Source: Methanococcus voltae
Lineage (GTDB): Archaea; AGJL01; Methanococci; Methanococcales; Methanococcaceae
Assembly (NCBI RefSeq): GCF_017875395.1
Contig: NZ_JAGGMO010000009.1
Span: forward strand, 1-51,220
Reading direction: 5' to 3'
Length of the DNA stretch: 51,220 nt
The translations under genes were made by a program, and so were the position numbers. How positions within the stretch are numbered: the stretch's first letter is position 1; each line of letters begins with the position of its first letter. Positions 1-21,899 of the stretch are shown in pieces. Under the pieces are notes generated by a model. That model worked only from the letters and a program-made list of their open reading frames with translations, was not told where the DNA came from and did not search any database.

Positions 1-241
1 ATTAAAACAAGGATTGAAACCCATATACTCGAGCCCTTGCGTCCTCAGTCCCTGCATTGTCACAGTGGCAATTCCATTAAAACAAGGATTGAAACTAGTC
101 AATGCCTGTATTTCCACCATTAAGCACACCAGTCACAGTGGCAATTCCATTAAAACAAGGATTGAAACACTTTGAATTCTTGTTCATTGATATATATAAT
201 TTCAGTCGCAGTGGCAATTCCATTAAAACAAGGATTGAAAG
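1..241 (+). CRISPR. Trailer end of a CRISPR array (4 repeats, first one cut by the window edge)
   Basis: A 37-nt repeat beginning GTCACAGTGG and ending GGATTGAAAC occurs at 59-95 and 132-168. Its last 20 nt are at 1-20, and a degenerate copy lies at 205-241 (A to G at its 4th base, final C to G). Spacers are 21-58 (38 nt, about 55% GC, far above the local DNA, so probably foreign), 96-131 and 169-204 (36 nt each). The ATTGAAAC end is the usual 8-nt crRNA tag of archaeal type I/III repeats, so crRNA would read on the plus strand, the leader lies to the left outside the window, and the degenerate copy marks the trailer. No cas gene is present. A 24-nt relic of the repeat recurs at 520-543. Confidence 0.93.
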
Positions 242-761
242 CCCAACTGCCTCTGGGCGATTGGCATTTACTCAAATCGGAGATTTGATATTTTTTTACA
301 TTTCAAGTCCATCAAAGGATTTTATGAACGAAGTGAATAAAAGGGTTTGGTTGAAAGCCCAACTGCCTTTAAATAAATCTTTCAGATTTATAGCTCGCCA
401 ACTACGTTGTCGATGGGCGGACGGCTTCATGTCAAATCGGAGATTTGATATTTTTATTTTCTTATTAAATTCCCATCAAAGGATTTTTACGAGTGAAACG
501 AGTAAAAAGGGTTTGGGATATTCCATTAAAACAAGGATTGAAAGCCCAACTGCCTTAGGGCGGACGGCTTCATGTCAAATCGGAGATTTGATATTTTTTT
601 ACATTTCAAGTCCATCAAAGGATTTTATGAACGAAGTGAATAAAAGGGTTTGGTTGAAAGCCCAACTGCCTTTAAATAAATCTTTCAGATTTATAGCTCG
701 CCAACTACGTTGTCGATGGGCGGACGGCTTCATGTCAAATCGTAGATTTGATATTTTTATT
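217..761 (+). repeat. Segmental duplication (about 242 bp, 303-bp offset) of CRISPR-repeat end plus hairpin tract
   Basis: Bases 217-458 recur at 520-761. From 272/575 onward the copies are almost identical over about 187 bp (one difference, in a hairpin loop, at 440/743); the 30 bp before that are diverged. Each copy starts with the 3' part of the CRISPR repeat followed by GCCCAACTGCC; the string TTGAAAGCCCAACTGCC occurs four times (about 235, 352, 538, 655). The unit holds short hairpins with 3-nt loops: TCAAATC/GATTTGA (loop GGA or GTA), ATAAATCT/AGATTTAT (loop TTC), and TCGCCAAC/GTTGTCGA with one mismatch (loop TAC). An open reading frame spanning 102-830 here is only a translation of these repeats. 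Confidence 0.85.
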
Positions 762-1163
762 ACATTTCAAGTCCGTCATCTTAAAAATCTTAGATTTTTG
801 AGATACCTAAAATCTATGATTTTAGTGTAAAGGATTTTTACGAGTGAAACGAGTAAAAATGGTTTGTTTTATGAGCATAGCGAATAAAATGGTTTAGAGT
901 GAAACGAGTAAAAAGGGTTCGATAGAAATTTCAAGTTTTATTTTATCAAATTATGCCTATTCGTAATAATTTCAGAAATCTTTTCTGAATAGATTCTGCT
1001 TCAATCTATATTTTAACTCTCAACTTATTTTTCTAAATTTTGGTTTTTTATTGATTTATATACGATTGATAACCCTAAAATCATTTGATGTCTTAATATT
1101 CATCTATTTTATGGAGTTTTGAAATATCCTTTTTTTAAAAAAAGTAAAAAAGTAAGTAATATA
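762..1163 (+). repeat. Hairpin-module array downstream of the CRISPR trailer; remainder empty
   Basis: From 775 to 920 this tract carries a diverged copy of the element found at 17343-17464. It has a hairpin around 780-802 (CTTAAAAATC/GATTTTTGAG, loop TTA), a perfect 8-bp hairpin CTAAAATC/GATTTTAG (loop TAT), then hairpins at 829-865 and 867-889 with tandem GA/GA internal mismatches, and a partial one at 892-920. From 921 to 1163 I see no gene, only AT-rich DNA with a T-run/A-run pair (about 1129-1144) next to the 3' end of the P1 gene, plausibly its transcription termination area. Confidence 0.75.
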
Positions 1164-4100
1164 TTATTCAACCACCCTAAATCCATCAGCAGTCCACTCA
1201 ACGATAATAGGTTCTTCAGGAAGTTCTGTAAGAGTTTCAAAGTATTTTAAAGCAGCTTCAGTTCCTAATCTATCGGAACCAGCTATATATATCAACTTAT
1301 AATTCTGAATTACAGTTGAAGAGCCTGAAGGTATTGAAATAACTTGTATAATTCCTCTATTTTCCCCAGGATTATCATTAGTTACAGGGATAGAGAATCT
1401 ATCATTATATTGGTTAGCTATTCTGTTAGCTATTGGCCCACCTACGATAATTGTATCTCCATCTATTTCAGTATCGTCTGAATGTATATTTTCTTTTAAG
1501 TTTTCAGCTAACTGTTTATCGAAGCTACTTCCGTAAACTACGTTTGAATCTGAAACTGTCCTTCTTAAAGACTTAGAATCGATACTAGTGGAAGCATCTA
1601 TTGTTCTATGTCTATTATTGTTATTTGAAGGTACGTGAGTATCTATTGTAAATGTTGTAGTTGTTGAATTACTGTTGTTAGCATTATCGGTAGATGTAAC
1701 GTTTAATAGATATGTTCCATCGTTTAATGTTTTTTCCGCTACGTAGTAATCTCCTGTTTTAGTTAATGTAACGTTTTCATTAATATTTCCATTAGTTATG
1801 TTTGCTTTTACTTCTTTAACTTTAGATCCAGAATCTAAAGAGCTAACGTTTATTAAGAATTTATTAGTTTTTAAAGTTCCTGTTGGTGTGTTTATTGATA
1901 CGTTTGGAGCTGTTGTATCAACTATAAATGTAGTTGTTGAGGATATTGCTTTATTATTTAACGTATCTATTGCATAGATTGTTAAATTGTAATTATTATC
2001 TGATAATGTTTTATCTATAATGTAGTAACCATCAGTTAATGTTAAAGTATTATTTTCTCCATTTATGTTTGCCTTTACTTCTTTAATTCCAGTTTTATCA
2101 ATTACTGTTGCATTTATTGTAATATCGGATTCATTTTGAATTCCAATTGGAGAGTTTAATGTGATTGTTGGGGCAGATGAATCCAAGGTAAAGTTTATTA
2201 CTTTGGTTTTATTGTAGTTACCTGCTTTATCGTAAGCAGTTATTACATAAGTATAATTACCACTAGACAATGAATTAATTGCAGATGTACTGTATATGTT
2301 TCCACCAATGTCATTCATTGTGTAATTATTTTCATTTAATTCAACGGTAACGTTTTTAACTTCCCTATTATCAGTTACTGTTGCATTTATTGTAAATCCT
2401 GTGTTTACAATTGTTCTGTTTGGTTTTTCATTTGTTATTACAGGTTTAGTTAAATCAATTATAATTTCATTTGGCTGAGTTTTATTTATATTTCCTAAAT
2501 TATTCGTTGCATAGATGGTTATATTGTAATCACCTTCTGCTAACGTATTAGTATTTCCAATATAATTGTCAGTATCTTTTGATAAAGTTACGTTTTTATT
2601 TACAGCACTAGATTTTATATTTGCCTTTACTTCTTTTATCCCGTAAGTATCGGTTACAGTTGCATTTATTTCAATATCTGATTTATTATATATTGAATTA
2701 TTTGTAGGTTCTGCTATTTCCATAACCGGTTTAGTTTCATCCACTATGAAGGTAGATTCGTTTGTATAGGTATTTTTATACAAATCTGTTGCAGTTACTT
2801 TTAATGTATAAGTACCTGCTTCCAAATTACTTATTAATTTAGTGTGTAAGTTTTCATTGTGCAAATCTTCAGTTAAATCATATTTAAATGTCTCAGTACC
2901 TTTTGTTAATGAAATATTAACAGTTGATTTTTCATTAACTGTTACTTGAATATTTGTTGCGATTCCCACTGTTGAACTATCTGTTGGTTTAACTGTAATT
3001 ATCTTTGGAGCAGTTGTATCAACTGCGAATATTACTTCATCAGTTACGTTTTTATTTCCTACAGTATCTTCCGCATAAACTTTTATAACATATTTGTTAT
3101 CTGCGAAGTTTCTACTTAATGTGTAGTAATTATCTGTTTTACTTAAAGTTACATTAGTTCCATTTATGTTCGCTATTACTTCTTTTATTGCACTTGAATC
3201 GTTTGCAGTTGCATTTATTACAATATCGCTTATATTGTAGATTTTATTGTTTATAGGAGTGTTTATTGATACGTTTGGAGCTGTTGTATCTACTATAAAG
3301 CTAATAACTTTCTCATCACTATTTCCTGCAGTATCTTTAACGGATATATTTATATTGTGTAACCCTTCTTTCAATCCACTAGCAGTTCCTGTATATGTTA
3401 AATCCGTTGGATTTACAGTCACTGTTTTTTCATCACCCGTTCCTCTATCGATAATTACTGTAGAACTTGAAACTGATTCGTTTACTGTAAAGTTTACTTT
3501 AACTTCACTCAAATTGTAGATTTTATTGTTTACTGGTGAATTTACTGTTATTCCAGGTTTAGTTGTATCAACTGAGAATATTATTTCATCGGTTACGTTT
3601 TTATTTCCGGCATTATCTTCGGCATAAACCTTTAAACCATGTTTACCATCGGATAACGTTTTACTTACTATGTAATAGTCATTATCTTTATTCATTGTAT
3701 AGTTAGTTCCGTTTATGATTGCTTTTACTTCTTTTATTCCATATGTATCATTTACAGTTGCATTTATCAACATATAATTTTTAGAATATGTTTTATTATT
3801 TATTGGAGTGTTTAATGATACATTTGGCTTGGTTGTATCAACCATAAATGTTATTTCATTTACATTTTTAATACCTAAATTATCTTCAGCGTAAACCTTT
3901 AAACTATGTTTACCATCGGATAACGTTTTGCTTAATGTATAATAGTCACCAGTTTTGCTTAATGTTTCATTAGTTCCATTTATGTTTACCTTTACTTCTT
4001 TTATACCTATTGCATCTGTTGCATTTATATTTATTAGTATATCTCTTGTATTATAGCTAGTATTGTTTATTGGATTATTTATTATTATTTCAGGTGCTTC

Positions 4101-5216
4101 TGTATTTACAACAATCCATTGTTTTTTAACACTTCTATGCCCCAGGTTATCAAAAGCATAGAATGTTAATGAGTAATTACCATCAAGTATTCCGTTATAT
4201 CCTAAGTAGAAGTAATTAGGATACTCTGCAAGTGATACATTCCAATCATCTAGTCCGGACACTATATAATCAACACCGCTTGCATCTACTGCAGTTATAT
4301 TTACTATAAAATTCTTTACGTTTAATATTGATTTATTAGCTGGCGAATGCACTGTCATTACTGGACCTGTGGTATCCATACATTTTGGTAAATAATCAAT
4401 AAGACCTGCTTTTATCGAATGTATGTCGTCACAGAAACCATCACCATTATTATCAGGATGAGTTTCAGAGAAACCGGGTCCTGTTGAATTAAACCAGTAG
4501 TTTCCACCACCGTTCTCTTTTGTAGTATTTAAGTCATTTGTACATTGATAAGCATCAATATTATACATAGAGTTATTAAAAAAATTGTCATATATTAAAT
4601 TACCATTTGAAGATTCTAGATATGCACCATACTGATTGTTTAAATAAATACTATTATTGAATACCTCATTACCTGTACTTTGCATGGTATAAAATCCTAT
4701 ACCATTATTGCTGTATATTTCATTACTTTTTATGGTTGAATTCGTAGTATACCATAGTATTATACCATTCCAGTTATTGTGCGCGGTATTGTTTAGTATG
4801 GTATTATTTATTCCTTGTACCCTAATGCCAAATCCACAATTTGATGTAGTACTGTTGAAAACAATGCTGTCATCACATTTTTGAAGGTATATACCCTCCT
4901 CCATAAAATCTTTTACATTGAGATTTTTTATCGTAACATTTTTAAGTACTACGCCTGATTTATATACTAAAACACCTGTGCTTGCAGCACTATTTTTTCC
5001 ATCTATTGTAAGTCCTTTTCCATCTAATGTTACATTGTCACTAGTAATTACAATTATATTACCCATATTGTGGGATATACTGTTATTTAAATAATACTTT
5101 CCCGGCGTATCTATCGTATCGGGTCCAGATATCGGCGTATCTGCATATGTAGTATTGATTGCTAACATTGTCACCATTAGTACCATAAAAAATGCTATTT
5201 TGTAGTTTTTTTTCAT
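1164..5216 (-). CDS. P1: secreted beta-helix plus Ig-like repeat surface protein with S-layer-like C-terminal domain
   Basis: A 1350-residue protein whose start is set by GGAGG five bases before the ATG at 5216; an upstream in-frame ATG at 5228 overlaps that site. A signal peptide (about residues 1-25, ending TYA before DT) leads into an Asn-rich NosD/PbH1 beta-helix to about 240. A GGGNYW motif and an acidic DNNGDGFCDD loop follow at about 240-280. Then come about ten Ig-like repeats of 85-90 residues, each opening like TTKPNV or TTAPNV and holding motifs such as IKEVKANING and YAEDN. The last 140 residues are the C-terminal domain shared with P2-P5, resembling archaeal S-layer C-terminal domains (GGPIANRIAN, YIAGSDRLGTEAAL). 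N-x-S/T sequons are abundant. It is probably extracellular, glycosylated and attached to the S-layer; its ligand is unknown. It is the only family member with Ig repeats. Confidence 0.88.
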   Translation of the reverse strand: MKKNYKIAFFMVLMVTMLAINTTYADTPISGPDTIDTPGKYYLNNSISHNMGNIIVITSDNVTLDGKGLTIDGKNSAASTGVLVYKSGVVLKNVTIKNLNVKDFMEEGIYLQKCDDSIVFNSTTSNCGFGIRVQGINNTILNNTAHNNWNGIILWYTTNSTIKSNEIYSNNGIGFYTMQSTGNEVFNNSIYLNNQYGAYLESSNGNLIYDNFFNNSMYNIDAYQCTNDLNTTKENGGGNYWFNSTGPGFSETHPDNNGDGFCDDIHSIKAGLIDYLPKCMDTTGPVMTVHSPANKSILNVKNFIVNITAVDASGVDYIVSGLDDWNVSLAEYPNYFYLGYNGILDGNYSLTFYAFDNLGHRSVKKQWIVVNTEAPEIIINNPINNTSYNTRDILININATDAIGIKEVKVNINGTNETLSKTGDYYTLSKTLSDGKHSLKVYAEDNLGIKNVNEITFMVDTTKPNVSLNTPINNKTYSKNYMLINATVNDTYGIKEVKAIINGTNYTMNKDNDYYIVSKTLSDGKHGLKVYAEDNAGNKNVTDEIIFSVDTTKPGITVNSPVNNKIYNLSEVKVNFTVNESVSSSTVIIDRGTGDEKTVTVNPTDLTYTGTASGLKEGLHNINISVKDTAGNSDEKVISFIVDTTAPNVSINTPINNKIYNISDIVINATANDSSAIKEVIANINGTNVTLSKTDNYYTLSRNFADNKYVIKVYAEDTVGNKNVTDEVIFAVDTTAPKIITVKPTDSSTVGIATNIQVTVNEKSTVNISLTKGTETFKYDLTEDLHNENLHTKLISNLEAGTYTLKVTATDLYKNTYTNESTFIVDETKPVMEIAEPTNNSIYNKSDIEINATVTDTYGIKEVKANIKSSAVNKNVTLSKDTDNYIGNTNTLAEGDYNITIYATNNLGNINKTQPNEIIIDLTKPVITNEKPNRTIVNTGFTINATVTDNREVKNVTVELNENNYTMNDIGGNIYSTSAINSLSSGNYTYVITAYDKAGNYNKTKVINFTLDSSAPTITLNSPIGIQNESDITINATVIDKTGIKEVKANINGENNTLTLTDGYYIIDKTLSDNNYNLTIYAIDTLNNKAISSTTTFIVDTTAPNVSINTPTGTLKTNKFLINVSSLDSGSKVKEVKANITNGNINENVTLTKTGDYYVAEKTLNDGTYLLNVTSTDNANNSNSTTTTFTIDTHVPSNNNNRHRTIDASTSIDSKSLRRTVSDSNVVYGSSFDKQLAENLKENIHSDDTEIDGDTIIVGGPIANRIANQYNDRFSIPVTNDNPGENRGIIQVISIPSGSSTVIQNYKLIYIAGSDRLGTEAALKYFETLTELPEEPIIVEWTADGFRVVE

Positions 5217-5261
5217 ATTATCCTCCATTATATTTTACATAATTATTTATTTTTTTAATTG

Positions 5262-5830: not shown

Positions 5831-5952
5831 AAAAGCTTCACTCCAAACCATTTTATTCACTTCGTTCATAAAATCCTTTACACTAAAATCATAGATTTTA
5901 GGTATTTTAAAAACCGTAGGTTTTTAAGATGATGGATATATTTTGTATTTTT
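5831..5952 (-). mobile_element. 122-bp hairpin element inserted behind P2
   Basis: As far as I could compare by eye, this is identical, in reverse orientation, to 17343-17464 behind P4. It is bracketed by a 10-bp near-repeat (minus strand TGAAACTTTT at 5953-5962 and TGAAGCTTTT at 5831-5840) where P3 and P5 have one uninterrupted copy, so empty and filled sites can be compared. It encodes no protein and contains three hairpins with 3-nt loops. It resembles a MITE- or REP-like non-autonomous element; no transposase is in the window. Confidence 0.7.
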
Positions 5953-5970: not shown

Positions 5971-8202
5971 TTAGTTAACTACTTTATAACCAGAACTAGT
6001 CCGCCCTACAACAATAGGTTCAGTAGGTAACTCTGTAAGAGTTTCAAAGTATTTTAAAGCAGCTTCAGTTCCTAATCTATCGGAACCAGCTATATATATC
6101 AACTTATAATTCTGTATTACAGTTGAAGAGCCTGAAGGAATACTTATAACTTGTATAATTCCTCTATTTTCTCCAGGATTATCATTAGTTACAGGGATAG
6201 AGAATCTATCATTATATTGGTTAGCTATTCTATTAGATCTAGGCCCTCCGATAATAATGGTATCTCCATCTATTTCAGTATCGTCTGAATGTATATTTTC
6301 TTTTAATTCTTTTGCTAACTGTTTATCGAAGCTACTTCCGTAAACTACGTTTGAATTTGAAACTGTCCTTCTTAATGAGCTTGATTCTATGCTTGGTGAA
6401 TCATCTATTGGTTTACGTTTGTTATTATCGTTATTGTTACTATTTGTTGGCTCTGACCCTAGTACAGAGGTTGATTTTCCACGATATATCGGTAAATAGT
6501 CTACGTTTCTTTTTGAAATATTGTATGGTTCATCACAGAAACCGTCTTTATCTAAATCTGCATGAGTTTCAGAGAAACCCGTCCCTTTTGGAGTTATCCA
6601 GGTGTTTCCCCCACCTTTCTCTTTGGTAGTGTTCCAATAATTTAGCCCATATCCCATATGTACATTTTTTACATTGTTAAATACATTTTTTACAATATAA
6701 TTATTATGGGAATTCGATAAAAAGACACCTGTATCCTTGTTTAAACTTATTGTATTATTTATTATTTGATTATTATTAGACAAATCTTCTATGTAAATAC
6801 CATTTACTATGTTTAAACTTATTGTATTATTTATTACAGGATTACTTTGTGACTTATATATGTGAATACCATATCTAAGGTTTGAATGTACAGTATTCGT
6901 TATAACGGTATTATTTTTAGAATGCGATAAATAAATACCACTGTTCTTGTTTGAATTTACAGTATTATTGGTAATTGTGCTATTTTGAGAATACCCCATA
7001 TAAATACCACTGTTCTTGTTTGAATTTGCAGTATTATTGGTAATTGTGCTATTTTGAGAATTTTCTATATATAGGCCATAACTGTTTGAATTTACAGTAT
7101 TATTGGTAAAATTACAGTTTGTACTGTACTGTGCGGTTATTCCAAAATTTGCACCTGATATATTTAAATTCTCGACAAGCATATTTGAACAGTTCATAAG
7201 TATTACTTGCCCAGCGTCTTCGGGAACTTTTCCAGTATTGTTATTTTTGTAATAGTAAATTGGTCTACCGTTCATCGTGTTATTTTTGATTGTATGCGTA
7301 TTTGTACCACCAATGCGGTCGTATGTATTTCCCACCCTAATTCCACGGATATCTAACGAATTATTGACGAGAATACAGCCATGTGAAGAATAATCTATCA
7401 CAATATCATTAATACTATTTGAATTTGCAGTATTATTTTTAATAGTATTATTCTTGGAATTATCTATATACATACCATTTTTGTTTGAATTTATTCTGTT
7501 ATTTATAATGGGGGTATTTGGGGAATTAAATATGTGTATACCACATTCGCTTGAATCTGCAGTATTATTTACAAAGAAGCTGTTCGGAGAGCTCCATAGT
7601 GTAATGCCATAATTGCTTGAACTTACAGTATTATTTATAATAGTGCTGTTTGGAGATTTTTCCAAATGAATACAAGCATCTCCCCTCGAACTTACAGTAT
7701 TATCTATAACAGAGGAATTGGGACAATTATAAGTATAAATATCCCGTGTTATGCCTGAACTTACGGTATTATTTATAATAGTGCTGTTTGGGCAGTCTAT
7801 TAAATGGATATTATAATCACCATTTGACTTTAGATTATTATTTATAATGGATATGTTAGTTACATTAATCATATGGATACCCATATGGTATCCAGATATA
7901 TTCGTATTTTTTATTGTAATGTTTTTTAAATTTTGTCCATAAATACCCCGTGCTAAACCATTATTGGAAATTAAAGGAGCGGCTCTACCTATAATTGTTA
8001 CATCATCAGATTTAATTACGATGGCATCGTACTGGGTAGTTGGTAGGGTATGGTCAATGTAATAAATCCCTGGTCCGCATATCGTACGTCCAGCTGGTTC
8101 ATAACCTACGTTAGTGGTTTCATATTCTGCATAAACTGTATTTATGGATAATATCGCTATTATCAATAGTATAAAAAATATTAGATTATTATTTAGTTTC
8201 AT
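5971..8202 (-). CDS. P2: secreted Asn-rich beta-helix surface protein with S-layer-like C-terminal domain
   Basis: A 743-residue protein with AAGGGGT upstream of the ATG. The signal peptide (about 1-25, ending VYA) is followed by NosD/PbH1 beta-helix repeats of about 23 residues (recurring NSTIINNTVSS units). The family insert GRPIYYYKNN...VPEDAGQVIL sits mid-protein and is followed by further helix turns. Near 530-570 come the GGGNTW motif and the calcium-loop-like DLDKDGFCDE. A low-complexity Asn linker leads to the common C-terminal domain, here with the alleles PSIESS, KELKEN and GGPRSN and the tail VVGRTSSGYKVVN. No membrane anchor is visible. It is probably cell-surface and glycosylated. 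Its 3' 0.4 kb is nearly identical, in inverted orientation, to that of P3. Confidence 0.88.
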   Translation of the reverse strand: MKLNNNLIFFILLIIAILSINTVYAEYETTNVGYEPAGRTICGPGIYYIDHTLPTTQYDAIVIKSDDVTIIGRAAPLISNNGLARGIYGQNLKNITIKNTNISGYHMGIHMINVTNISIINNNLKSNGDYNIHLIDCPNSTIINNTVSSGITRDIYTYNCPNSSVIDNTVSSRGDACIHLEKSPNSTIINNTVSSSNYGITLWSSPNSFFVNNTADSSECGIHIFNSPNTPIINNRINSNKNGMYIDNSKNNTIKNNTANSNSINDIVIDYSSHGCILVNNSLDIRGIRVGNTYDRIGGTNTHTIKNNTMNGRPIYYYKNNNTGKVPEDAGQVILMNCSNMLVENLNISGANFGITAQYSTNCNFTNNTVNSNSYGLYIENSQNSTITNNTANSNKNSGIYMGYSQNSTITNNTVNSNKNSGIYLSHSKNNTVITNTVHSNLRYGIHIYKSQSNPVINNTISLNIVNGIYIEDLSNNNQIINNTISLNKDTGVFLSNSHNNYIVKNVFNNVKNVHMGYGLNYWNTTKEKGGGNTWITPKGTGFSETHADLDKDGFCDEPYNISKRNVDYLPIYRGKSTSVLGSEPTNSNNNDNNKRKPIDDSPSIESSSLRRTVSNSNVVYGSSFDKQLAKELKENIHSDDTEIDGDTIIIGGPRSNRIANQYNDRFSIPVTNDNPGENRGIIQVISIPSGSSTVIQNYKLIYIAGSDRLGTEAALKYFETLTELPTEPIVVGRTSSGYKVVN

Positions 8203-11141: not shown

Positions 11142-13082
11142 ATGAAGATATGTATCAAAATAGTACTTTTTATGTTACTAATGGTGACGATGTTGGCTGT
11201 TAATACGGTATATGCAGATACTGAAATAAATAGTAGCGATTATACCATCAATAAATCAGGTAAATATTATTTAGCAAAAAATATAATTTGTAATGATAGC
11301 AATAATTGTATATCTATTACTTGCAACGATGTAGTTATAGATGGTAAGGGTTTTGCATTAGATGGGAATAATTCTGGAAGTAATGGGATTTATATGGCAG
11401 TAATGTTTACCCAACTCCGAAATATAACTATAAAAAATTTAAAGATAAGAAATTTTACAAATAGTGGAATTTATCAATATGGTGCTGTTTCTGGCTTAAT
11501 TAAAAATAATACCCTATACCATAACGGGATGGGTGGAATTACAGCATATGATACTCACCGTTATGAGATTGTAAATAATAATATATCTTCAAATGAAGGG
11601 TATGGTTTTACCGCGTATTATTCAGATAATAATAACATAATAAATAATACCGTAGGACAAAATAATTATCATGGAATACACCTATACGATTCGCTACGTA
11701 ACATGTTGGAAAATAATATTTTATCAAAAAATAAGTGGCACGATATACAGGTAGCAAGTTCCGACCGAACTACGATTAAAAATACAACCGTATCTTCAAA
11801 TGATTCATTAGGAATTGCAATTTTAGATTCAAAATATAATGTTTTAACCAATAATTCGTTAAAAAGTGGTGGTATATCCATTACAGGTCGTTTTTTGGAA
11901 AATTGGAACACACATACCTTTGAAAATAATACGGTCGATGGAAAACCAATTTATTATTATAAAGACGTTAATAATACTACCGTACCAGAAGATGCTGGAC
12001 AAATAATACTTGCAAACTGTAATGGTTTTTTAATTGAAAATATAAACGTCTCTAATCTTTTTACAGGTTTACAAATGGTTTATTCGTCAAATAATCTATT
12101 AAATAATGTTAATGTATCAAATTCTAAAAATGGAATGTTAATTCATATGTCCCATAATAATAGTTTCATAAATAATAAAATTTACTTAAATAATAATTAC
12201 GGTATTTATTTACAACTTTCAGATAATAATACAATATATAATTGCGATATTTCAAATAATAGAGAAGGATTTAAATTTTCCGGTAATAATAACAACACTA
12301 TAAACAATAATTTATTAAAAAATAATGAAATTGGTATGTATTTAAGTAATTTAAATAATAATTCGATATATAACAACACATTTAACAATACGGAAAATAC
12401 CAAAACAGGTAGAATCATTGGTTTAAATCATTGGAATACCACAAAAGAGAACGGTGGTGGAAACTACTGGTTTACTCCAAACGGAACAGGCTTCTCTGAA
12501 ACTCATGCAGATTTAGATAACGACGGTTTCTGTGATGAAATATACAATATTTCAAAAGGAAACATAGATTACTTACCAAAATGTTTTAAAAGAGAAGAAC
12601 CGGCACCTAAACCAAGCAATAATAACAATAATAGGCATAGAACAATAGATGCTTCACCAAGCATAGAATCAAGCTCATTAAGAAGGACAGTTTCAGATTC
12701 AAACGTAGTTTACGGAAGTAGCTTCGATAAACAATTAGCTGAAAATCTAAAGGAAAATATACATTCAGACGATACTGAAATAGATGGAGATACCATTATT
12801 ATCGGAGGGCCAATAGCTAATAGAATAGCTAACCAATATAATGATAGATTCTCTATCCCTGTAACTAATGATAATCCTGGAGAAAATAGAGGAATTATAC
12901 AAGTTATTTCAATTCCTTCAGGTTCTTCAACTATAGTTCAAAGTTATAAGTTAATCTATATAGCTGGTTCTGATAGATTAGGAACTGAAGCTGCTTTAAA
13001 ATACTTTGAAACTCTTACAGAGTTACCTACTGAACCTATTATCGTTGAGTGGACTAGTTCTGGTTGTAAGGTAGTTAACTAA
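11142..13082 (+). CDS. P3: secreted Asn-rich beta-helix surface protein with S-layer-like C-terminal domain
   Basis: The shortest intact family member (646 aa), with GAGGGG before the ATG. A signal peptide (about 1-25, ending VYA before DTEI) is followed by about 400 residues of irregular NosD/PbH1 helix with many N-x-S/T sites. The insert GKPIYYYKDVNN...VPEDAGQIIL lies near 270, then GGGNYW and DLDNDGFCDE at about 440-465, a KREEPAPKP linker and the common C-terminal domain (alleles PSIESS, ENLKEN, GGPIAN, IVQSYK). It diverges from the fic gene and lacks a good match to the 23-bp box of its paralogues, so its expression may instead respond to the fic operator region. Confidence 0.88.
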   Translation: MKICIKIVLFMLLMVTMLAVNTVYADTEINSSDYTINKSGKYYLAKNIICNDSNNCISITCNDVVIDGKGFALDGNNSGSNGIYMAVMFTQLRNITIKNLKIRNFTNSGIYQYGAVSGLIKNNTLYHNGMGGITAYDTHRYEIVNNNISSNEGYGFTAYYSDNNNIINNTVGQNNYHGIHLYDSLRNMLENNILSKNKWHDIQVASSDRTTIKNTTVSSNDSLGIAILDSKYNVLTNNSLKSGGISITGRFLENWNTHTFENNTVDGKPIYYYKDVNNTTVPEDAGQIILANCNGFLIENINVSNLFTGLQMVYSSNNLLNNVNVSNSKNGMLIHMSHNNSFINNKIYLNNNYGIYLQLSDNNTIYNCDISNNREGFKFSGNNNNTINNNLLKNNEIGMYLSNLNNNSIYNNTFNNTENTKTGRIIGLNHWNTTKENGGGNYWFTPNGTGFSETHADLDNDGFCDEIYNISKGNIDYLPKCFKREEPAPKPSNNNNNRHRTIDASPSIESSSLRRTVSDSNVVYGSSFDKQLAENLKENIHSDDTEIDGDTIIIGGPIANRIANQYNDRFSIPVTNDNPGENRGIIQVISIPSGSSTIVQSYKLIYIAGSDRLGTEAALKYFETLTELPTEPIIVEWTSSGCKVVN

Positions 13083-13302: not shown

Positions 13303-14076
13303 ATGCCTAAATTAATCATTTGTGGCCGTGGAGGTTGTGGAAAAAGTACCTTAATCACACTCATGGCTCAGAAAATTGAAGAACAAGGAAAAAAGGTCTT
13401 AATTGTAGATTCGGATGAATCCAACCTCGGTCTTAGTGCCATGGTAGGGATAGAATCTCCAGAAAAAACTCTTATGAATTATTTGGGGGGTAGACCTATA
13501 TTGGATGGTAAGTTAATGGAAGTTTTCCTAAATGGCGGGATTGAGCAATTAGATCTCTTTTCAGAGACTTCATTAGATAAACTCCCATCCGAATTTGTTA
13601 GTTGGAATGGAAACAAAGGCTTTATGCAAATTGGGAAAATAGAACACAACAATGAGGGCTGTGCATGCCCTATGGGTGTAGTAGGAAATGATTTCTTAAA
13701 TAAACTTATTTTAAATCAAAATGAGTGGGTTTTAATAGATACCGAGGCTGGAGTGGAACACTTTGGACGTGGAACTGTTGAAGAAGTAGACGCTGTGATT
13801 ATGGTGGTTGACCCATCTAACGATGCAGTTTTGTTGAGTGAAAAAATATCGAAATTATCTAATGACGCAGGTAAACCCTTTGGAATTGTTCTAAATAGAG
13901 TTGACGATGAAACAAAGGTAATACTCGAAGATGCCATTTCAAAGAAGAAAATTTCTATTATGGGTGCCATACCATATTCAAAGACAATGGCTCGTGAAAA
14001 TCTTGTAGGAAACAGGCTTGATAATAATATGGTCGAAGGTAACGTAGGGGAAATACTAAAAAATCTTGAAAATTAA
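13303..14076 (+). CDS. CooC-like MinD/ParA-family ATPase
   Basis: A 257-aa P-loop ATPase with a good GGGAGG site before the ATG. The deviant Walker A is GRGGCGKST (residues 8-16), Walker B-like strands are VLIVDSDESN and WVLIDTEAGVEH, and a C-x-C pair occurs in GCACPMG near residue 120. The combination of a MinD-type fold and the CxC pair is characteristic of CooC, the nickel-insertion ATPase for carbon monoxide dehydrogenase; an equivalent role for the methanogen CODH/acetyl-CoA synthase is inferred. No CODH gene is nearby, and it stands alone among the surface-protein genes. Other nickel or Fe-S maturation targets are possible. Confidence 0.8.
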   Translation: MPKLIICGRGGCGKSTLITLMAQKIEEQGKKVLIVDSDESNLGLSAMVGIESPEKTLMNYLGGRPILDGKLMEVFLNGGIEQLDLFSETSLDKLPSEFVSWNGNKGFMQIGKIEHNNEGCACPMGVVGNDFLNKLILNQNEWVLIDTEAGVEHFGRGTVEEVDAVIMVVDPSNDAVLLSEKISKLSNDAGKPFGIVLNRVDDETKVILEDAISKKKISIMGAIPYSKTMARENLVGNRLDNNMVEGNVGEILKNLEN

Positions 14077-14831: not shown

Positions 14832-17324
14832 ATGAAAAAAAGTTGTTTTAAATTGACATTTTTTGTATTATTGGTAACAATAGTATTGTCCCTTAATTCA
14901 GCATATGCAGACACTGAAATAAGTGGCCCCTACAATATTAGCACGCCAGGGAATTACTATTTAATAAACAATATAACTCCAGGGGAACTTGGAGAAAATG
15001 ATGCAATAATAAATATTTTTTGCAGTAACGTAACCTTGGATGGTAAGGGATATACCATAAAGGGAAATTATAATTCATATGGTATAGTAGTACGTAAAAA
15101 TCCCAAATTTATAAAAAATATCACAATAAAAAATTTTAAAATGGAAAATTTAGAGAGATTTGGAATTTGTATCATGAATACAACTAATTCTCATATATTA
15201 AATAACACTGTCAATTCAGCATATGATTCAATTGCATTGATGAATTCATCAAATAACACTATTAAAAATAACAATGTTTCATTATCTGTACGTACAGGTA
15301 TCGAAGCAGTAATGGGCAGTAATAACAATACCATTATTAATAACACTGTTTCAAATTGCCAATTTGGAATTGATATGGGTAAATCGTTAAATAACACTGT
15401 GATAAATAATACATTGTACAATGCAGGGATATGCGTTGGTGGAGATTATTATGGTAACCTTAATCCTAATATTATGCAATGGATTAATCATACAATAGTA
15501 AATAACACCGTAAATGGAAAACCAATTTACTATTACAAAAATAATATTACTGGAAAAGTTCCAAAGGATGCTGGACAAGTAATACTCGTAAATTGTTCAA
15601 ATATGAATGTTGAAAACTTGACCCTAAATAACGTTTCAATGGGCATAGACCTTGGTTTCTGTTCAAATATAACCGTTAAAAACATTACCATGGGTAATAA
15701 TTCAATGGCAAATATTTTGGCATATCAGTTACATAATAGTAGTATTTCAAACAATACTATTGGTTCAGGAAAATATGGAATTTCACTACATTATTCAAAT
15801 AACAATACAATTTGTAATAACAATATTTCAAAGTTTAGCGAGGTAGGAATTATAGTTGCTACCCACTGTACGAATAATACAATTGAAAACAATGAACTCT
15901 ACAAAAATAATATAGACTGTATGTTGGACAATTCTTTTAACAATACTATAAAATCCAATAAATTTACTATGGGTGGTCTTACAATTCGTGGATCACAAAA
16001 ACAATACTGGAATACACACAATATCACAGATAACACCGTAAATGGAAAACCAATTTACTATTACAAAAATAACAATTCAGAAAAAGTGCCAGAAGATGCA
16101 GGACAAGTAATACTTGCAAATTGTTCAAATATGAATGTTGAAAATTTAGCTATAAATAACGTTTCAATAGGTATAAGCCTTGGTTTCTGTTCAAATATAA
16201 CAGTTATAAACACTAACATGACAAATATATACGATTACGGAGTATATTGTAGTAAGTCACCCAATACAACAATTAATAATACTAGAATAGTTGGTATTCC
16301 ATATCAGGGTTGTGGGATATATTTAAAGTATTCAGAATATAGCTCATGTATAAATAATAACATAGTTTCAGTTAGTGTCGGCATACTTACCACATATTCA
16401 AACAACTTAAAACTAATTAATAACGACATATCATCTAAATCTACGAATTTAGCATTTATAACATCGGATAATTCAGAAATAGCTTCTAATAAAATATACA
16501 ATAGTGCTTTAGGAATATACCTAAATGCAAAAAATACTAAAATATATAATAATTATATATATTCAAATAATAATGGATTATTACAAGATAATCCAAATAA
16601 TAACTCAATATATAACAATACATTTAACAATACAAGAAATGTTCTCGTATATGATATTATGGGATTAAATTACTTCAACACTACAAAAGAGAACGGTGGT
16701 GGAAACTACTGGTTTACACCAGAAGGAACAGGTTTCTCTGAAATAACGCCTGACAAAGACGGAGACGGTTTCTGTGATGAAATATACAATATTTCAAAAG
16801 GAAACATTGATTACTTACCAAAATGTTTTAAAAGAGAAGAACCGGCACCTAAACCAGGCAATAATAACAATAATAGGCATAGAACAATAGATGCTTCCAC
16901 TAGTATCGATTCTAAGTCTTTAAGAAGAACTGTTTCAGAATCATCAGTAGTTTACGGAAGTAGCTTCGATAAACAGTTAGCTGAAAATCTAAAGGAAAAT
17001 ATACATTCAGACGATACTGAAATAGATGGAGATACCATTATTATCGGAGGGCCTAGATCTAATAGAATAGCTAACCAATATAATGATAGATTCTCTATCC
17101 CTGTAACTAATGATAATCCTGGAGAAAATAGAGGAATTATACAAGTTATAAGTATTCCTTCAGGCTCTTCAACTGTAATACAGAATTATAAGTTAATCTA
17201 TATAGCTGGTTCCGATAGATTAGGAACTGAAGCTGCTTTAAAATACTTTGAAACTCTTACAGAACTTCCTGAAGAACCTATTATCGTTGAGTGGACCAGT
17301 TCTGGTTATAATGTAGTTAACTAA
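14832..17324 (+). CDS. P4: secreted Asn-rich beta-helix surface protein with S-layer-like C-terminal domain
   Basis: An 830-aa protein with GGTGA before the ATG. The signal peptide (about 1-26, ending AYA before DTEI) precedes a long NosD/PbH1 helix. Unlike its paralogues it carries the GKPIYYYKNN...VPEDAGQVIL insert twice (about 230 and 400), each followed by SNMNVENL and the same SLGFCSNITV-type turn, so an internal duplication of about 180 residues occurred. GGGNYW and DKDGDGFCDE lie at about 620-650, then KREEPAPKP and the shared C-terminal domain (alleles TSIDSK, ENLKEN, GGPRSN, tail SSGYNVVN). It is probably surface-exposed and heavily glycosylated. Confidence 0.88.
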   Translation: MKKSCFKLTFFVLLVTIVLSLNSAYADTEISGPYNISTPGNYYLINNITPGELGENDAIINIFCSNVTLDGKGYTIKGNYNSYGIVVRKNPKFIKNITIKNFKMENLERFGICIMNTTNSHILNNTVNSAYDSIALMNSSNNTIKNNNVSLSVRTGIEAVMGSNNNTIINNTVSNCQFGIDMGKSLNNTVINNTLYNAGICVGGDYYGNLNPNIMQWINHTIVNNTVNGKPIYYYKNNITGKVPKDAGQVILVNCSNMNVENLTLNNVSMGIDLGFCSNITVKNITMGNNSMANILAYQLHNSSISNNTIGSGKYGISLHYSNNNTICNNNISKFSEVGIIVATHCTNNTIENNELYKNNIDCMLDNSFNNTIKSNKFTMGGLTIRGSQKQYWNTHNITDNTVNGKPIYYYKNNNSEKVPEDAGQVILANCSNMNVENLAINNVSIGISLGFCSNITVINTNMTNIYDYGVYCSKSPNTTINNTRIVGIPYQGCGIYLKYSEYSSCINNNIVSVSVGILTTYSNNLKLINNDISSKSTNLAFITSDNSEIASNKIYNSALGIYLNAKNTKIYNNYIYSNNNGLLQDNPNNNSIYNNTFNNTRNVLVYDIMGLNYFNTTKENGGGNYWFTPEGTGFSEITPDKDGDGFCDEIYNISKGNIDYLPKCFKREEPAPKPGNNNNNRHRTIDASTSIDSKSLRRTVSESSVVYGSSFDKQLAENLKENIHSDDTEIDGDTIIIGGPRSNRIANQYNDRFSIPVTNDNPGENRGIIQVISIPSGSSTVIQNYKLIYIAGSDRLGTEAALKYFETLTELPEEPIIVEWTSSGYNVVN

Positions 17325-17342: not shown

Positions 17343-17464
17343 AAAAATACAAAATATATCCATCATCTTAAAAACCTACGGTTTTTAAAATACCTAAAAT
17401 CTATGATTTTAGTGTAAAGGATTTTATGAACGAAGTGAATAAAATGGTTTGGAGTGAAGCTTTT
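17343..17464 (+). mobile_element. 122-bp tri-loop hairpin element inserted behind P4
   Basis: It is inserted in the 3' hairpin found intact behind P3 and P5, with near-duplicate flanks TGAAACTTTT (17333-17342) and TGAAGCTTTT (17455-17464). Three hairpins are seen: TTAAAAACC/GGTTTTTAA at 17368-17388 (loop TAC), CTAAAATC/GATTTTAG at 17394-17412 (loop TAT) and a long one at 17416-17450 (loop GAA) with symmetric GG/GG and GA/GA internal loops. It has no coding capacity. A matching copy is at 5831-5952 and diverged relatives lie at 290-920. Confidence 0.72.
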
Positions 17465-18347: not shown

Positions 18348-21300
18348 ATGAACAAAAACTACAAAATAGCACTTTTTATGTTACTAATGGTAACAATGTT
18401 AGCAATCAATACTACATATGCAGATACGCCGATATCTGGACCCGATACGATAGATACGCCGGGAAAGTATTATTTAACAAATAATATAACAGTTTCCAGT
18501 GGTCGAGTTATTGTAATTACCAGTGACAATGTAACATTGGATGGAAAAGGCTTTACTATAAAAGATAATGATAGCATTAATGTTTTAGACTATGGTATTT
18601 ATGTACCTAATGTAAAGAATATTACAATAAAAAACTTTAATATATCTACTATTGGTTACGGTATTAGAATCGAAGGGTCTGAAAATACCGCCCTAATTAA
18701 TAATACTTTAAATTCAAATTACCATAATATCAATATAAAATCTTCAAAAAATTCAACCATTCTTAACAATACGATAATTTCTAGTGATATTTCAGGTATA
18801 TCAATATCAGATTCACCTAACACTAGTATTATAGGCAATAATGTAAGTTTAAACAAAGATTGGAGTATAGCCATATCTGGAACTTCTAATGATTTAGTTA
18901 TTTCAAATAACAACGTAAGTTTAAATAAAAATGGTGTTAAACTACATGACTTACATAATGCAGATATTAGTGGTAATAATATAAGTTCAAATAACAATCG
19001 TGGTATTGACCTATATAATGTATATAATCTAACTATTGCTAATAACAATATAAGTTCAAATACAAATTATGGTATTGTTGCTGCTGAAATAACAAATATA
19101 TCCATTATAAACAATACTATAAACTCAAATACGGCCAATGGTATTCATATGTATGAGGTCGTTAGTCCTATTACAATCATAGGCAATAATGTAAGCTCAA
19201 ATCTAGATAATGGTATTTATATCAAGAGTTCTAATAACAATTTCATTATAAATAACACTGTAGATTCAAACACTGTTAATGGTATATATCTAGAGAGTTG
19301 CGATAATAATTCTATATGGAATAATAATGCAAGTTCAAACAAACAGGGTATTTATGTGCGAAATTCAAACAATAACACAGTTTTAAATAATAATGCAAGT
19401 TCAAACAAACAGGGTATTTATTTAGAAAATTGTGATAATACCTCCATTATAAATAATACTGCAAGTTCAAACGATCAGGGTATTTTCGTATACTACTCCA
19501 ATAATAACTCCATTATAAATAATACTGCAAGTTCAAACGATCAGGGTATGTATTTAGCTAATTCTAATAATAACACAGTTTTAAATAATAATGCAAGTTC
19601 AAACAATAATGGTATTTTCGCATACTACTCCAATAATACCTCCATTATAAATAACACTTTAAATTCAAACACTGTTAATGGTATTTATTTAGAAAGTTCA
19701 AATGATAACTCCTTTATAAATGCTACTGCAAATTCAAACATTTTCGGCATTTACATATACAAGTCCAATAATAACTCCATTATAAATAGTAATGTAAATT
19801 CAAACAATAATGGTATTTATGTGCGAAATTCTAATAATACCGCCTTTATAAATAATACTGCAAATTCAAATAATGATAAGAGTATTTACCTACAATATTC
19901 CAATAATAATTCCTTTATAAATAATACTGCAAATTCAAATAATAATGGTATTTACGTATACTATTCCAATAATAATTCCTTTATAAATACCAATGTAAAT
20001 TCAAACAGTGATAATGGTATTTATTTACGAAATTCTGATAATAATTCCTTTATAAATAATAATGCAAGTTCAAACAATAATGGTATTTACCTACAATATT
20101 CCAATAATACCGCCTTTATAAATAATACTGCAAATTCAAACATTGTTAATGGTATTTATTTAGAAGATTCTAATAATAACTCCGTTATAAATAATACTTT
20201 AAATTCAAACGTTGATAGGGGTATTTATTTACGAAATTCTAATAATAACTCCATTATAAATACTAATGCAAATTCAAACAAACAGGGTATTTATGTAGAC
20301 TATTCAAATAATACTCACATTATAAATAATACTTTAAATTCAAACATTTTTGGTATTTATTTAGGTATTTCTGATAATAACTCTCTTATAAATAATACTT
20401 TAAATTCAAGTGATACTTGTATAGAATTGGAAGATTCACAAAATAATACATTTATTGAAAATTCATTGACGAACGGTATTGATATAGAAGGAAGTTCTTT
20501 ATTACAATATAATAGCCATACGATACTAAATAACACAGCAAATGGTAAACCAATTTACTACTATAAAAATAACAATACAGGAAAAGTTCCAGAAGATGCT
20601 GTACAGGTAATACTCGCAAACTGTTCGAATATGATTGTTGAAAATTTGAATTTATCCAATGTATGTAATGGACTATTTATGATATATAGCTCAAATTGTT
20701 CAGTAAAAAATAATGATATAAGTTCAAACGGTTGCGGTATTTATTTAGTTAATTCTACTGATAACTCCATTATAAATACTAATGCAAGTTCAAACACCGA
20801 GGGTATTTATTTACGAAATTCTGATAATAACTCCATTATAACCAATAATGCAAATTCAAACCTGGTAGGTATTTATTTACGAAATTCTAATAATACTTCC
20901 ATTATAAATACTAATGCAAATTCAAACTATTATGGTATTTATTTAGACCATTCTAATAATAACTCCATTATAAATAATAATGCAAATTCAAACATTTTTA
21001 ATGGTATTTTATTAGGTAATTCGAATGATAACTCCTTTATAAATAGTAATGCAAATTCAAACAATGATAAAGGTATTTTCCTATTATATTCAAACAATAC
21101 CTCCTTTATAAATAATACTGCAAGTTCAAACGCTGTTAATGGTATTTATTTAGAAAGTTCAAATGATAACTCCTTTATAAACAATTTATTTAATAATACG
21201 AAAAATATAGAATTCCAAGGGGTTAGTTCAAACTACTGGAGTACTACAAAAGAGAAAGGTGGAGGAAACTATTGGGCAACTCCAAACGGAACAGGTTTCT

Positions 21301-21899
21301 CTGAAACTCATAACGATTCAGATAACGACGGTTTCTGTGACGAAATATACAATATATCCTTAGGTAACATAGATTACTTACCGATTTCTGGCAAAAAAGT
21401 AGAACCAACGCCTGAGCCACAGCCTGAGCCAACATACAACAGAAATAATAACAATAAAAAATTAGATGCTTCACCAAGCATAGAATCAAGCTCATTAAGA
21501 AGGACAGTTTCAAATTCAAACGTAGTTTACGGAAGTAGCTTCGATAAACAGTTAGCAAAAGAATTAAAAGAAAATATACATTCAGATGATACTGAAATAG
21601 ATGGAGATACAATTATCGTAGGTGGACCAATAGCTAACAGAATAGCTAACGTTTACAACGATAGATTCTCTATCCCTGTAACTAATGATAATCCTGGAGA
21701 AAATAGAGGAATTATACAAGTTATAAGTATTCCTTCAGGCTCTTCAACTGTAATACAGAATTATAAGTTAATCTATATAGCTGGTTCCGATAGATTAGGA
21801 ACTGAAGCTGCTTTAAAGTACTTTGAAACTCTTACAGAGTTACCTACTGAACCTATTATCGTTGAGTGGACTAGTTCTGGTTATAAGGTAGTTAACTAA
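18348..21899 (+). CDS. P5: giant Asn-rich beta-helix surface protein with S-layer-like C-terminal domain
   Basis: An 1183-aa protein with GGAGGATAAT before the ATG, as in P1. After a signal peptide (1-25, ending TYA) it has about 930 residues of very regular 23-24-residue beta-helix turns of the type ANSNxxGIYLxxSNNNSFIN, giving ladders of Asn and Ser and dozens of N-x-S/T sequons. The GKPIYYYKNN...VPEDAVQVIL insert interrupts the helix near 725 (AGQ changed to AVQ). GGGNYW and DSDNDGFCDE lie at about 985-1010, then a PTPEPQPEP linker and the shared C-terminal domain (alleles PSIESS, KELKEN, IANVYND). The regularity points to recent expansion by unit duplication. It is probably a long glycosylated rod on the cell surface. 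Confidence 0.9.
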   Translation: MNKNYKIALFMLLMVTMLAINTTYADTPISGPDTIDTPGKYYLTNNITVSSGRVIVITSDNVTLDGKGFTIKDNDSINVLDYGIYVPNVKNITIKNFNISTIGYGIRIEGSENTALINNTLNSNYHNINIKSSKNSTILNNTIISSDISGISISDSPNTSIIGNNVSLNKDWSIAISGTSNDLVISNNNVSLNKNGVKLHDLHNADISGNNISSNNNRGIDLYNVYNLTIANNNISSNTNYGIVAAEITNISIINNTINSNTANGIHMYEVVSPITIIGNNVSSNLDNGIYIKSSNNNFIINNTVDSNTVNGIYLESCDNNSIWNNNASSNKQGIYVRNSNNNTVLNNNASSNKQGIYLENCDNTSIINNTASSNDQGIFVYYSNNNSIINNTASSNDQGMYLANSNNNTVLNNNASSNNNGIFAYYSNNTSIINNTLNSNTVNGIYLESSNDNSFINATANSNIFGIYIYKSNNNSIINSNVNSNNNGIYVRNSNNTAFINNTANSNNDKSIYLQYSNNNSFINNTANSNNNGIYVYYSNNNSFINTNVNSNSDNGIYLRNSDNNSFINNNASSNNNGIYLQYSNNTAFINNTANSNIVNGIYLEDSNNNSVINNTLNSNVDRGIYLRNSNNNSIINTNANSNKQGIYVDYSNNTHIINNTLNSNIFGIYLGISDNNSLINNTLNSSDTCIELEDSQNNTFIENSLTNGIDIEGSSLLQYNSHTILNNTANGKPIYYYKNNNTGKVPEDAVQVILANCSNMIVENLNLSNVCNGLFMIYSSNCSVKNNDISSNGCGIYLVNSTDNSIINTNASSNTEGIYLRNSDNNSIITNNANSNLVGIYLRNSNNTSIINTNANSNYYGIYLDHSNNNSIINNNANSNIFNGILLGNSNDNSFINSNANSNNDKGIFLLYSNNTSFINNTASSNAVNGIYLESSNDNSFINNLFNNTKNIEFQGVSSNYWSTTKEKGGGNYWATPNGTGFSETHNDSDNDGFCDEIYNISLGNIDYLPISGKKVEPTPEPQPEPTYNRNNNNKKLDASPSIESSSLRRTVSNSNVVYGSSFDKQLAKELKENIHSDDTEIDGDTIIVGGPIANRIANVYNDRFSIPVTNDNPGENRGIIQVISIPSGSSTVIQNYKLIYIAGSDRLGTEAALKYFETLTELPTEPIIVEWTSSGYKVVN
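19230..21185 (+). repeat. Intragenic tandem repeats of 69-72 bp in P5
   Basis: Units such as AATAATACTGCAAGTTCAAA followed by GGTATTTATTTA and AATAATAACTCC recur in two blocks (about 19230-20410 and 20750-21185), one unit per beta-helix turn and interrupted by the non-repetitive insert. Neighbouring units are often nearly identical at the DNA level, so copy number could change by slippage or recombination while staying in frame. Confidence 0.8.

Follow-up and report, generated by a model that had tools for sequence, protein, structure and literature searches.

Composite hairpin elements at CRISPR array ends in Methanococcus voltae and their probable amplification by recombination between repeats

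The window analysed here, a stretch of 51,220 nucleotides that constitutes contig C9 of the Methanococcus voltae draft genome (GCF_017875395.1; 1.9 Mb in 15 contigs, labelled G000), starts within the tail of a CRISPR array, which is joined to a tract of hairpin sequences (Table 1). The Rfam scan detected CRISPR-DR7 at 59–95 and 132–168. The leader end of the array probably lies on contig C11, as indicated by shared sequence: 77 nt, located inside a duplicated spacer unit, are common to the C11 end and the window start, and the contigs seem to have been split there by the assembly at a k-mer overlap. Comparison of window positions 1–76 with positions 14067–14218 of C11 (L141) placed the split within the tandemly duplicated spacer CCATATACTCGAGCCCTTGCGTCCTCAGTCCCTGCATT. 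Another array of the genome, with a near-identical repeat, is adjoined by Cas1, Cas8b (TM1802) and Cas7, which indicate a type I-B system.

In the original prediction, made from the letters of the window, the last repeat was said to have a changed final base, and we found that 205–241 reads GTCGCAGTGGCAATTCCATTAAAACAAGGATTGAAAG, with the remaining repeats of the window array ending in C. As GCCCAACTGCC (241–251) itself starts with G241, a cleaner reading is that 36 nt of repeat are followed by the element. The tracts in the arrays could be described as chains of units, here termed E, which are 78–208 nt long and are composites of three hairpin modules, HP1, HP2 and HP3; after each unit comes a partial repeat of 24–27 nt (r), a 6-nt TTGAAA and a further unit, or the flank of the array. 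The partial repeat followed by GCCCAACTGCC was present where it had been predicted. The 17-mer TTGAAAGCCCAACTGCC recurs twice as expected, at 351–367 and 654–670, its starts being one base ahead of those first given (352 and 655). The copy at an offset of 303 bp is a tandem duplication (217–458 versus 520–761, 95% identical), whose mismatches are one patch at about 253–272, where HP1 has been swapped, and one base at 440, and whose copies diverge past 458. The left edge of this duplication is the exact start of the partial repeat (217 and 520).

Table 1. Array, hairpin units and non-CRISPR hairpin copies in the window
Feature	Position	Strand	Remark
CRISPR array, trailer-proximal part	1–204	+	Repeats 1–20 (cut by contig end), 59–95 and 132–168 (GTCACAG type), with spacers
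Last full repeat, without final C	205–240	+	GTCGCAG type; rest of window array GTCACAG
E1, composite hairpin unit (short HP1, HP2, HP3)	241–350	+	GCCCAACTGCC...GGGTTTGG
TTGAAA, 6-nt repeat remnant between E1 and E2	351–356	+	Same E-E joint in three other arrays
E2, composite hairpin unit, long branched HP1	357–516	+
r, partial repeat ATTCCATTAAAACAAGGATTGAAA (24 nt)	520–543	+	GCCCAACTGCC from 544
E3, copy of E1 with a different short HP1 version	544–653	+
TTGAAA remnant between E3 and E4	654–659	+
E4, long HP1 unit with extended HP3	660–866	+	Array trailer end
Extended HP3 hairpin, non-CRISPR copy	5844–5936	-	3' end of surface-protein gene
Extended HP3 hairpin, non-CRISPR copy	17359–17451	+	3' end of surface-protein gene

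The claim of an exact junction between the hairpin tract and the repeat's 3' end held beyond the window. The junction, GATTGAAA directly followed by GCCCAACTGCC, was recovered at all five array ends examined in this genome (contig C2 at about 5.8–6.4 kb, 31.5 kb and 54.8 kb, contig C4 at about 58.0 kb, and the window) and in one array of the congener G006, where it begins four tandem units with a period of 139 bp; the main limit on reading these counts, alongside the draft assembly, is the shared ancestry of all the junctions. A second array of G006 and the arrays examined in G003 and G011 are without the hairpin tract, and one E copy sits in the middle of array C2-1, with ordinary spacers after it. 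In the M. voltae genome the 17-mer TTGAAAGCCCAACTGCC has 12 copies, all of them in or at CRISPR arrays, and since the reversed control pattern has none, its presence at arrays is not due to chance. A tract starting with TTGAAAG away from any CRISPR array, which would have suggested coincidence, was searched for in the same genome and not found.

Searches for the junction outside the genus returned 20 matches from the genome collection, in assorted bacteria, which were taken as chance by their number and taxonomy and were not individually inspected. Nine viral-contig matches were inspected and look like chance, none lying beside a CRISPR repeat, and phage and plasmid records gave no match. Apart from the CRISPR repeat, the Rfam search returned a single match, well under its threshold, and a literature search gave nothing specific on such hairpin elements in Methanococcus. 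As to what borders these trailers, that of array C2-2 runs directly into an ORF resembling a viral terminase (L137, 10684–11436, minus strand; no Pfam match), the start codon and first codons of which come from the hairpin sequence ATGAACGAAGTGAATAAAA, and two divergent serine-recombinase-like ORFs (L071, 1–430 on the minus and 720–1264 on the plus strand) come after the G006 hairpin trailer.

Parts of the element are also found away from arrays. The 11-mer GCCCAACTGCC occurs at five non-CRISPR sites of the M. voltae genome, none of them preceded by TTGAAA, and is the left end of the element itself. HP1 copies lie off arrays in the related species G001, G005 and G006. Copies of HP3 are found off arrays too, two of them within the window. 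The ends of E as a whole do not match each other, the palindromes being its modules. For the long HP1 we obtained a conserved branched fold of 18 pairs with 97.2% of cells paired and four pairs (nine cells) changed on both sides, and none of 500 shuffles scored as high in paired cells or covariation, although the structure comes from RNAalifold on the same sequences that were tested and thus leans towards itself. It replaced a hand-made structure whose pairing register was off and which yielded no signal.

Several gene ends carry hairpins. The window encodes paralogous surface-type proteins (1164–5228, 5971–8202, 11142–13082, 14832–17324 and 18348–21899) with Asn-rich repeats and a common C-terminal domain; at least two of their genes have hairpins at the 3' end, and some of the gene end seems to be repeated past the hairpin. 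The end of contig C4 (L254) and the start of C2 (L243) consist of a tandem unit of about 148 bp with a short HP1 at an apparent hsdS 3' end, and in G001 (L093) HP1 likewise lies at an hsdS-like end.

Among the arrays that carry the element are chimeric ones. The window repeat before E is of the GTCGCAG type in a GTCACAG array, array C2-3, otherwise of the GTCGCAG type, has a GTCACAG repeat after E, and the partial repeat in C2-1 is of the ATAATCC type, as in G006, where the local type is AATTCC. The units in the arrays also combine different versions of HP1, linker and HP3. In G006 the tandem period corresponds to E plus r, and this, like the left edge of the window duplication at the start of r, is as expected for unequal exchange between a full repeat (R) and r. 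Taken together, the chimeric arrays, the mixing of modules, the tandem periods (139 bp and 303 bp) and the duplication edge point to recombination between repeat cores, through which the ends of arrays would exchange DNA, one main limit on reading the tandem and chimeric structures being that contigs of the draft assembly break at repeats. This bears on the suggestion that the repeat end had been used as a target: the element's own boundary at GCCCAACTGCC, its dispersal and the long flanking duplication fit such insertion, but recombination links the six arrays to one another, and hence independent insertions at the repeat end cannot be counted.

Every insert within an array is flanked by direct repeats, and so r alone is no proof of target duplication. 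In this genus, 5 of 16 non-CRISPR hairpin loci had long flanking direct repeats against a null of 1.25%, it being noted that the positive L018 may reflect within-tract repeats and that the few null matches are probably homologous flanks. In G008, of a different genus in the same family, 14 clusters of an unrelated hairpin family were searched outside arrays, and eight had flanking direct repeats scoring at least 17, compared with none among 182 flank-swapped pairs; core limits in this test were from BLAST matches, neighbouring matches were merged by eye and the threshold of 17 was set after a first look. At the end of an integrase gene in G005 a perfect 26-nt repeat surrounds HP3, and the same arrangement is seen in G000. 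Since long direct repeats frequently surround hairpins away from arrays, r may represent the same kind of long target duplication, which at the array we infer, no empty site for E having been found. All three arrays examined in G008 carry composite hairpins at their trailer ends, where these split the terminal repeats, and the invasion of array ends by hairpins is therefore not unique to M. voltae. A separate 93-bp hairpin unit of G008 is present in at least four tandem copies away from any CRISPR array (L297–L300; C1:884194–884499).

We consider it reasonably probable that a dispersed hairpin element reached a repeat end in one or a few events, after which recombination between repeats copied and amplified it. 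On this view E, with its three hairpin modules, would be a palindromic element that is dispersed, structured and non-autonomous. An ancestor of G000 and G006, or a lineage that exchanged DNA with them, would have acquired it at the 3' end of one CRISPR repeat, with the last 24–27 nt of a repeat after it (R-E-r). The first insertion probably duplicated a long stretch of target, as at many of the copies outside arrays. E-r would then have behaved as a cassette bounded by repeat cores, with recombination of R with r giving rise to tandem copies (the 139-bp period of G006 and the 303-bp offset of the window), and exchange between arrays may have carried it to all five G000 array ends examined.

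The alternative that survives best, though we regard it as unlikely, is a single chance landing at a repeat end, with no preference and no target duplication, in which r is a deletion leftover and the rest reflects common descent and exchange between arrays by recombination. R-E-r would also remain if a spacer had been deleted together with the 5' part of the repeat after it, one junction is common to all copies, the arrays show recombination, and for a single event the exact boundary is only a coincidence of about 1 in 73, the length of a repeat and spacer unit. Against it stand the long direct repeats that often flank non-CRISPR hairpins and the unrelated hairpins at array ends in another genus.

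It is improbable that the tract is a functional CRISPR trailer, such as a terminator or a source of structured RNA excised by Cas6 at R and r. Its presence at every G000 array end examined and one in G006, the retention in r of the 3' part of the repeat with its ATTGAAA tag and the conserved HP1 fold would favor such a role, but the tract is missing from the second G006 array and from those examined in G003 and G011, the C2-1 copy is not terminal, whole-tract folding was no better than that of shuffled sequence and the modules also occur far from arrays. Processing by Cas6 on either side of E would be expected to yield RNAs that begin with the tag ATTGAAAG and run on into GCCCAACTGCC. We see still less chance that a hairpin class of this methanogen family is moved by a widely staggered integrase (about 25 nt), possibly Cas1-Cas2 or Cas1-like, which favors CRISPR repeat ends, so that the adaptation machinery would also be a hairpin transposase. 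Least probable of all is the proposal that E entered like a spacer, captured by Cas1-Cas2 at abnormal length with later decay of the neighboring repeat: E does lie between a repeat and part of one, and the C2-1 copy precedes ordinary spacers, but E far exceeds the 33–49 nt of the spacers, the downstream repeat is 24–27 nt or 6 nt in every case, the upstream one lacks its final C, and all copies lie at or near the trailer end rather than the leader end.

The reading we prefer, a dispersed element amplified by recombination between repeats, can be set against several known systems. Like REP/BIME sequences (PMC3733652), E consists of short extragenic palindromes that are dispersed, form clusters or mosaics, frequently lie at the 3' ends of genes and show compensatory stem changes, but its units are larger composites with flanking long direct repeats. 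It is short, non-coding and dispersed, as are MITEs, which have been reported in archaeal CRISPR loci, one in Haloquadratum (PMC3119063) and one of 132 bp in a euryarchaeal locus (cited in PMC4390879), and which are likewise non-coding mobile repeats within a CRISPR array. However, the Haloquadratum MITE lies within a spacer (PMC3119063), whereas E lies at the repeat 3' end in several arrays and is amplified; moreover, E as a whole has unmatched ends, and the direct repeats flanking its non-CRISPR copies are long for a MITE. The palindrome-associated transposable elements (PATEs) of Haloquadratum are similarly short, transposase-free, palindromic archaeal repeats, but are described as making no target duplications (PMC3119063), while long direct repeats are frequent around the hairpins studied here. 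Casposons use a Cas1 and have flanking direct repeats of 1–27 nt (PMC4046053), the upper end of which approximates r in length; however, they are large and encode Cas1 and PolB, which the non-coding E, at less than 210 nt, is too short to contain, and nothing in this analysis ties E to Cas1. Mobile repeats inside archaeal CRISPR loci have been reported as rare (PMC4390879), yet here hairpins occur at every G000 array end examined, in a congener and, from a different hairpin family, in another genus. The arrays provide an ordered setting for tracing how such elements move and multiply, and it would be worthwhile to identify the insertion mechanism suggested by the long direct repeats that flank them.
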